DNA from: a virus
Direction: 5' to 3' (one strand)
IMG/VR virus record: IMGVR_UViG_3300025759_008281
Coordinates: 1 to 58,433 of that record
Length of the DNA stretch: 58,433 nt
Part shown: piece after piece, positions 29,460 to 31,668 of the stretch
Layout: each line of letters opens with the position of its first letter
Numbering within the stretch: the stretch's first letter is position 1
The notes under the pieces: generated by a model
Seen by the model: only the letters and a program-made list of their open reading frames with translations
Told to the model about the DNA's origin: nothing
The model's database searches: none
Program-made: the position numbers and the translations under genes

Positions 29460-29639
29460 TTATTCTTTCATACTACACGCAGGTAGTAACATTAAAAAAA
29501 TTATTGTAGGTATTAAGAATACCATAACCATGTCATCATTGTCATTATAGCCAAAATATAATCCATTCAGTGCAAAGAATGCAATAACAGATAAGTTAAG
29601 ACCATATGCAGTTCTAGTCATAAATCTAAAAAACTTCAT
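29460..29639 (-). CDS. Small membrane protein (lipobox-like C-terminus is not N-terminal)
   Basis: 59 residues from ATG 29639. Two hydrophobic stretches (about 12-24 and 36-52, VMVFLIPTIIFLMLLPA) around an Asn/Asp-rich turn. An upstream GTG would place the start inside the terminator of the structured RNA and is rejected. First gene after that RNA on the minus strand. Confidence 0.55.
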   Translation of the reverse strand: MKFFRFMTRTAYGLNLSVIAFFALNGLYFGYNDNDDMVMVFLIPTIIFLMLLPACSMKE

Positions 29640-29658: not shown

Positions 29659-29689
29659 CAAAAAATAAAACCTAGCACTACTCGGTTTT
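29659..29689 (-). terminator. Terminator at the 3' end of the giant RNA candidate
   Basis: AAAACC/GGTTTT stem around an 11-nt loop; on the minus strand the T-rich tail TTTTATTTTTTG follows. It coincides with the end of the structured non-coding stretch. Confidence 0.6.
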
Positions 29690-30455
29690 AACATCAATGA
29701 CCTACCATCTCTGATAGTTAGCACACGGAAGAGAAAACTTCCTTCATTGACTTTGCCATACTATGATTGACTGCATAGTAACAGAATAGGGTACAGTTGT
29801 TCTACTCTCACATCATCCTATTGGCCTATAGGACTTTGGTTAAGTGTTATATCATCAATGCTGGCACAAAGAATCAATAACCCCTTTCGGGATACACAAA
29901 ACATTTCTGCTTTATGATTAGGCACTTCCAACTAATACCATAAGTGTTTGGGTATCTCACCCTTGTCCAGTTCTCTTTTTAGTTTAGAACTTAGCATTTT
30001 ACGTCTTACTAGGATAATCACTCAAATCCCTAACTTTATATGCAACCACGTATTACTTGCAGGCAATACTCTTTACATATAACACTGATAGTTTTAGTGG
30101 TCTGCAAACCCTTTGTACTATCCACCCTTGTGTGCAACTGCTCCCCTTACAAGAAAGGTACTGATTACACGGTGTTCTGTATATTTCTCACTATAGTTCA
30201 ACATCTATAGTTTATACTCCCTACAGCATGGGAGTTGATATGTTATACTCAGACATATTGTAACATAACAAAGCAACATGAATTTTATCTACAGTTTTTA
30301 GTGTGGTGTAGACAATGATCCCACAATATTTAAGGCAGTTTTATATGATTACCTATAAGCATAGAGTTTTGCAACATCCAGGTTCTCTCCTGTGCCTACA
30401 ACTTATAGGGTAGGATTCTTCCACTAGTTTTAAGTGCTAATGAAGACCAAGTACA
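29690..30455 (-). ncRNA. Candidate giant structured non-coding RNA (~770-800 nt)
   Basis: No open frame of note exists on either strand from 29640 to 30472, while the base composition is less AT-rich than its neighbours and inverted repeats are dense. Perfect stems (plus coordinates) include 29694-29700/29744-29750, 29727-29731/29738-29742, 29759-29765/29774-29780, 29969-29974/29986-29991, 30057-30062/30102-30107, 30190-30196/30205-30211, 30216-30221/30230-30235, 30239-30245/30261-30267 and a 10-bp stem 30350-30359/30402-30412 with one bulge. The stem at 29880-29893 has a GAAA tetraloop on the minus strand, which sets the likely strand. TTAGCAC 29718-29724 can pair with GTGCTAA 30434-30440, bridging the ends. 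A terminator follows. The size matches GOLLD-class RNAs; sequence identity to any known class is untested. No clear promoter was found; it may be cut from the operon transcript. Confidence 0.75.
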
Positions 30456-30472
30456 CACTAAATATAAAAATA

Positions 30473-30619
30473 TTAATCATCATCATTATAATGACGTTTA
30501 AGATTCTCTCTATCTTCCTCCTCACACTGTTGACAAATATGAAATTCATCACAAGTGCAAGTTAAGGAAGGATCTATACTATACAGATCCATCCTATCAT
30601 TTGCTTCTTCAAAGGTCAT
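30473..30619 (-). CDS. Small Cys-rich acidic protein
   Basis: 48 residues from ATG 30619: MTFEEANDRMDLYSIDPSLT, then CTCDEFHICQQC (about 21-32, C-x-C and C-x-x-C with His, a probable zinc site) and an acidic end (HYNDDD). ATGA overlap with the gene upstream; the giant RNA starts just after its stop. Confidence 0.6.
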   Translation of the reverse strand: MTFEEANDRMDLYSIDPSLTCTCDEFHICQQCEEEDRENLKRHYNDDD

Positions 30620-31313: not shown

Positions 31314-31449
31314 TGCACAAAATTTAGATTCCGGATACCAATATAGTAATCTTCCTATATAAGAACACATAAGAGAGAAACATAACCATAAACTACTAAC
31401 AGTTTTAGTAACTGCTATAATTATTAGCTATATATATTGTTAATCCAAT

Positions 31450-31668
31450 TAAAGAAAAAATAGTGTGTGCTATTGTTATGATATGGGTAAATAAGGTCTC
31501 ACATAATAACAGTAACACACAACAAAATAAAAAAAGGGTAACCTAAATCCTGTGTAAAGGTGTTAACCTCAGCCCATTTCAGGGTTATACTAGGATTTAG
31601 TAGCAAGCTATAGTAACAATAACTAGTAACTATACTTGGTGTCAAGTGCAGCACCTGGTTTACCAGGT
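31450..31668 (-). ncRNA. Second structured RNA candidate, downstream of the 108-residue gene
   Basis: No coding frame is evident from 31314 to 31677. Inverted repeats follow one another: 31653-31658/31663-31668 (ACCTGG/CCAGGT), 31635-31638/31643-31646, 31609-31614/31629-31634, a 9-bp stem 31543-31551/31592-31600 enclosing two small hairpins, and GTGTG 31463-31467 plus TGTTAT 31474-31479 pairing with 31516-31520 and 31506-31511. On the minus strand the last is followed by TATTTTTTCTTT (terminator-like). A short RNA or a 3'-UTR structure is inferred. The remaining 31321-31449 shows only a CAGTT/AACTG hairpin at 31400-31414. Confidence 0.5.

Follow-up and report, generated by a model that had tools for sequence, protein, structure and literature searches.

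The closest known counterparts of the RNA considered here are GOLLD and ROOL, which are often located close to tRNA islands of phages and prophages and which assemble into nanocages made of RNA alone by way of kissing loops and A-minor contacts (PMC12286853). A search of the open-access literature found no paper linking GOLLD with crAss-like phages. GOLLD assembles as a 14-mer RNA cage and ROOL as an octameric one. To our knowledge these are the only two classes of cage-forming giant phage RNA, and neither has a known function. The RNA described below is a candidate for a third class, shorter than GOLLD and exchanged with it among close relatives.

The window analysed is the full length of a viral sequence record of 58,433 bases. 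Its major head protein (PHROG 'major head protein') is distantly related to those of crAss-like phages, with 24–28% identity. An early/replication gene block descends on the minus strand from ∼32.1 kb, and inside it lies a long gap, bounded by a gene for a 48-residue protein and by a small gene with its ATG at 29639. The features of this region are as follows.

30473–30619, minus strand: upstream gene, 48 aa, with the motif LTCTCDE.HICQQC; no PHROGs family
30244–30472, minus strand: stretch of 229 nt between the 48-aa gene and the RNA; no counterpart in homologues
29663–30243, minus strand: non-coding RNA of 581 nt, from 81% identity to the homologues L187 and L185, covariance models R2 and R3, and covariation
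29660–29688, minus strand: terminal hairpin with an invariant loop sequence (CCGAGUAGUGCUAGG) and a U-run, present in all nine sequences
29460–29639, minus strand: small downstream gene, 59 aa from its ATG, with a hydrophobic stretch; no PHROGs family

The 48-aa gene often adjoins the new RNA, and also GOLLD, in related phages. No tRNA gene was found within the window itself. Elsewhere in the early block, at 31360–31460 on the minus strand, a leader comprising TACCAC repeats, TATAGCTAT and then GTTCTCTCTCTATAGGATAAGAGACATAGTAACCG is kept in L009, L010, L013, L026 and L092, and is possibly an early promoter and transcript start.

The original prediction took the gap to be free of genes, and between the gene at 30473 and the ATG at 29639 there are indeed short, unconserved frames only. 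It had also named a conserved open frame in homologues as evidence against an RNA; none was found. A decayed or unrecognised protein-coding sequence would suit the intergenic location and nothing further. It is refuted by the alignment of homologues, in which all six frames carry stops, single-base gaps occur and the variable sites are spread evenly over the three phases, as well as by the compensatory pair changes described below, and we give it practically no credence.

Homologues and extent of the RNA

Single-sequence folding of 29660–30472 gives −213.2 kcal/mol on the minus strand (z −2.9) and −173.8 kcal/mol on the plus strand (z −1.4), relative to dinucleotide shuffles, and the z-scores of single member sequences are modest (−2.1 to −4.0). 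Since folding by itself would not settle the matter, the search for homologues is decisive. Searching phage and plasmid collections directly by DNA sequence returned no homologue. With the 48-aa gene as bait, however, L187 and L185 were recovered, each 81% identical to the window over ∼600 nt. Exact-motif searches added L189, then L199, L204 and L205, then L268 and L269, making eight homologues, all on viral contigs. Pairwise identities among the first seven members (L185, L187, L189, L199, L204, L205 and the window) are 73–92%. Two neighbour proteins used as bait gave two loci and none, respectively; the helicase and a 208-aa protein led to sister phages that lack the new RNA but expose GOLLD. 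Baits from the same gene block brought ∼100 loci, in several of which the same region has a long non-coding gap.

Covariance models agree with this membership. Model R2, covering the 3′ half and built from the first four members, scores 348, 322 and 298 bits on L204, L199 and L205, which are outside its training set, and 332 and 244 bits on L268 and L269. Since L268 and L269 had been picked up through a motif of the non-overlapping 5′ half, their R2 scores test membership independently. Model R3, covering the 5′ half, gives 289 bits on L268 and 255 bits on L269, neither of which was used in its building. A scan of bacterial genomes that required one exact motif produced 54 exact matches; R2 matched none of the 33 to which it was applied, and no prophage copy was found.

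Most of the homologues are carried by crAss-like or related phages. The L205 and L199 records share replication genes in the window's order, and the head protein in the L268 record is 77% identical to that of the window. One homologue, L269, belongs to an unrelated large phage, whose 166.5 kb record has no window-type head protein and encodes ribonucleotide reductase, SbcC-like and DnaB-like proteins. There the RNA is preceded by tRNA-Ile and tRNA-Pro genes and lies ∼60 nt downstream of the latter.

The ends of the RNA are well marked in these comparisons. The 5′ starts of the homologues coincide near window position 30243, their 3′ ends coincide after the terminal hairpin and U-run, and their lengths as aligned are 575–592 nt. 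The terminator with which the original prediction closed the segment (stem 29668–29688 plus U-run) is kept in all nine sequences, and the hairpin and U-run are, to judge from sequence, a probable intrinsic terminator and the 3′ end of the RNA; a simple terminator scan did not flag the hairpin. The stretch 30244–30472 probably lies outside the RNA. The span first proposed, 29659–30472, does contain an RNA, but its extent of ∼800 nt does not hold, the conserved part being ∼29663–30243.

The two ends of that longer span had been thought to pair through a 7-bp match, 29718–29724 with 30434–30440. The letters are present, but the pairing is not conserved: the match joins a conserved GUGCUAA to a site in the unconserved upstream stretch, and in L187, L185 and L189, the homologues examined for this, the 30434–30440 arm has no counterpart close to the RNA. 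Because this 5′ arm is outside the conserved RNA and is not seen beside it in those three, we attribute the end-joining pseudoknot to chance. Separately, a 4-pair end helix suggested by the consensus fold was dropped; it is 92.9% paired and shows no compensatory change.

Conserved secondary structure

The structure was modelled on an alignment of nine sequences, the window plus the eight homologues. The resulting model has 164 pairs, arranged as nested helices, two pseudoknots and one loop–loop contact, and includes 26 conserved helices, distributed as listed here.

29988–30243, minus strand: 5′ half, helices 1–11, including pseudoknot 1 and the loop–loop contact; matched by R3
30177–30226, minus strand: pseudoknot 1, hairpin loop 30222–30226 with 30177–30181, from covariation
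30058–30106, minus strand: loop–loop contact, 30103–30106 with 30058–30061, from covariation
29943–30022, minus strand: pseudoknot 2, 30019–30022 with 29943–29946, from covariation
29754–29996, minus strand: central domain, closing helix 29992–29996/29754–29758, helices 13–22, from the covariation model
29882–29891, minus strand: GNRA tetraloop hairpin CCC-GAAA-GGG, the loop being GAAA or GCAA throughout the nine sequences
29693–29751, minus strand: 3′ three-way junction, closing helix and two hairpins, helices 23–25, both sides changed in seven pairs

In the nine sequences 97.8% of cells are paired (88.4 ± 0.5% in 500 shuffles), the covariation score is 0.356 (0.163 ± 0.009) and both sides have changed in 69 of the 164 pairs (29.8 ± 3.4). 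No shuffle among the 500 attains any of these three values; the shuffle figures are not probabilities, because relatedness survives shuffling, and the count of 69 overstates independent events, because several members are closely related to each other. Slid controls, which are 35–46% paired with 7–10 pairs changed on both sides, agree with this result, as do the per-helix counts. Both the homologues and the covarying pairs that the original prediction had asked for are therefore at hand, and they bear out its giant structured RNA on the minus strand. We conclude that ∼29663–30243 of this strand is almost certainly a real structured RNA.

Three non-nested contacts were found in the first seven sequences, compared with a mean of 0.03 when rows were permuted. 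Pseudoknot 1 has five pairs, 100% paired in the nine sequences, three of them with changes on both sides. Pseudoknot 2 has four, also 100% paired, with two changed on both sides; it reads AGUG/CACU in the window and L269 and AGCU/AGCU in the others. The loop–loop contact, again of four pairs, is UGCA/UGCA, changing to UACA/UGUA in L205, L199 and L268, so that one compensatory change occurs in three sequences, and one pair is broken in L269. It could form within one molecule or between two. A pseudoknot had been expected at this locus, and although the one proposed from the end match is lost, these others covary.

The central domain holds a multibranched arm, 29790–29939, and a hairpin, 29759–29780. 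The GAAA tetraloop noticed on the minus strand at the outset is recovered in the stem at 29882–29891, with a GNRA loop in every homologue, and the hairpin placed at 29694–29750 coincides with the 3′ three-way junction region, where its helix shows a compensatory change. Unpaired stretches, for example GAAGUGCCUAAU, ACGUAAAA and GAUUUGAG, are invariant among the first seven members.

Comparison with GOLLD, ROOL and other RNA families

Rfam 15 was searched at curated cut-offs and again, with the filters relaxed, up to E 5. At the curated cut-offs the window has no match, and the permissive search of it gave irrelevant weak matches only. OLE, HEARO and raiA, which resemble the new RNA in being large structured bacterial RNAs, differ in that the window region has no match to them, nor to any other Rfam family, at E up to 5. 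The ROOL model (RF03087) has no match in the window, L185 or L189 records and scores only ∼7 bits in the L187 record, away from the RNA, and the GOLLD model (RF02032) has none in the window, L187, L185 or L189 records. These are the families that the original prediction had listed for checking, and the outcome favours the new class that it thought possible, the GOLLD and ROOL models being negative here though they detect GOLLD in sister phages and a ROOL control. The RNA very probably forms a class of its own, distinct from all Rfam families.

The new RNA shares several features with ROOL. At ∼570–590 nt the two are of similar length (the ROOL model has 574 positions), and both are phage-encoded, pseudoknotted and found in tRNA neighbourhoods, in L269 for the new RNA. 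However, the ROOL model scores 130.4 bits on a positive control, plasmid pMP118, yet gives the new RNA no match, and the long helix that joins the 5′ and 3′ ends of ROOL has no covarying counterpart in it. That the RNA is a divergent ROOL is accordingly a very remote prospect.

In two sister phages the gap aligns with the entire Rfam GOLLD model, at L031:4014–4420 (E 6e-17) and L078:1627–2022 (E 9e-21), both below the curated cut-off. GOLLD or GOLLD-like RNAs, likewise below that cut-off, are seen in the crAss-like contigs L031, L078, L092, L010, L104, L139, L171 and L176, and those of L092 and L010 are missed by the Rfam model. No record tested has both the new RNA and GOLLD. Terminase identity to the window is 85% for the L031 record (GOLLD), 82% for L187 (new RNA), 80% for L104 (GOLLD), 73–74% for records with a further element, type B, and 63% for L171 (GOLLD), such that phages with terminases 63–85% identical hold a GOLLD-like RNA, the new RNA or type B in the same region. 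In L185 the 74-nt 5′ flank of the new RNA is 92% identical to the GOLLD flank in L078 and 78% identical to that in L171; the 3′ flank is shared more weakly with GOLLD-bearing loci. Because these flanks are common to L185 and the GOLLD loci, different RNAs have been exchanged at the same place and, judged from such sequence comparisons, the new RNA takes GOLLD's place in related phages. The likeness to GOLLD and ROOL drawn in the original prediction was in this respect apt.

Two other elements were observed at these loci. Type B is an unrelated, conserved non-coding element of ∼430 nt (L026:5880–6320, L042:5557–6005, L011:5232–5680) in which a long predicted helix joins the ends; across three sequences both partners change in 10 of its 122 pairs, and it has no Rfam match at E≤1. 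The shared 3′ flank downstream of GOLLD or the new RNA (L185 1348–1800, L078 2030–2248, L104 4561–4726) carries an inverted repeat (GCAGTTGTAAT ... ATTACAACTG) and may be a separate RNA domain.

Could the new RNA be a very divergent GOLLD, with the same locus, role and ancestral fold but beyond the reach of the models? Both are giant structured phage RNAs with pseudoknots and loop–loop contacts, they share a genomic region and flanks in close relatives, all nine members of the new family are on viral contigs, and one (L269, tRNA-Pro) lies in a tRNA neighbourhood. By eye, the order of 3′ elements is also similar, with a hairpin, a three-way junction and a hairpin with a large loop. On the other hand, the new RNA is ∼580 nt long (581 nt in the window) compared with >800 nt, it is conserved over its full length whereas GOLLD is conserved mainly in its 3′ half, and the GOLLD landmark motifs (the UCAAAAG loop and AAAGCAAAAGU) were not seen in it. 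Covariance models match in neither direction. Model R1, trained on crAss-like GOLLDs with L092 and L010 among them and having 34 of 54 consensus pairs changed on both sides, scores 236 and 168 bits on the held-out GOLLDs of L171 and L176, but with filters off it does not rise above noise (∼11 bits at most) on the window RNA and its homologues; R2 and R3, conversely, find no GOLLD locus and no type B locus. A very old common origin is improbable on this evidence, and it keeps some weight because the Rfam GOLLD model is insensitive to L092 and L010. A hairpin similarity between the two RNAs (UACUAUGCAGU) was rejected as a sign of homology, having no model support and differing in L269.

Possible mode of action

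The RNA is hundreds of nucleotides long and non-coding, has a covarying multi-domain structure with pseudoknots, and resides in phage genomes, as expected of a large ornate phage RNA. We consider it likely that it represents a new class of this kind, alongside GOLLD and ROOL. Among possible modes of action, we favour the following. The infected cell would contain the RNA as a discrete and abundant transcript, made together with the early genes to judge from its position, and the RNA would function as such and not as message. It would then form a homo-oligomer made of RNA alone, shaped as a cage or ring, in which kissing loops and other contacts through the invariant unpaired stretches join the copies, and the complex would hold or exclude a component of the infected cell, perhaps the translation machinery or tRNA. 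The homo-oligomeric step, for which the argument is by analogy, is quite possible, and we put it forward tentatively. Still more tentative is the suggestion that this is a third independent RNA-only multimer class, unrelated to GOLLD and ROOL, which took over the locus and the job of GOLLD; if so, it is the function that matters and the fold that is replaceable.

The observations themselves need no oligomer. A structured RNA could act as a monomer or with protein, as a ribozyme, as a scaffold or as a decoy that diverts host factors or defence, and its invariant single-stranded stretches are possible binding sites for protein or RNA. We regard this as rather unlikely, in that no gene is common to all contexts, with the neighbours in L199, L204, L205 and L269 all different, and no Rfam ribozyme family matches the RNA; because the neighbouring genes vary, no dedicated protein partner is apparent. 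A role as a cis-regulatory leader might be read from the position of the RNA, which precedes early genes of the same strand, and from the terminator-like hairpin at its end. However, the downstream genes vary between phages, the terminal hairpin and U-run are always of one kind, and known leaders are far smaller than an RNA of 580 nt and 26 conserved helices, making such a role very improbable.

For the proposed class of ornate RNA, the natural replacement at one locus offers a way to approach the job itself, by asking what the new RNA and GOLLD have in common in binding and timing and whether they are interchangeable. A further point is that current annotation misses giant structured RNAs in crAss-like phages, which are an abundant group.

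Further elements adjoin or lie near the RNA in individual phages. Those at L187:4852–4923, in L189 at about 1141–1216 and in L204 at about 1009–1090 are tRNA-like, with acceptor and T arms and an odd anticodon arm, and are not called by ARAGORN. In L185 a Hatchet self-cleaving ribozyme is found at 158–295, ∼460 nt upstream of the RNA, with a score of 86.7 bits, above the cut-off.
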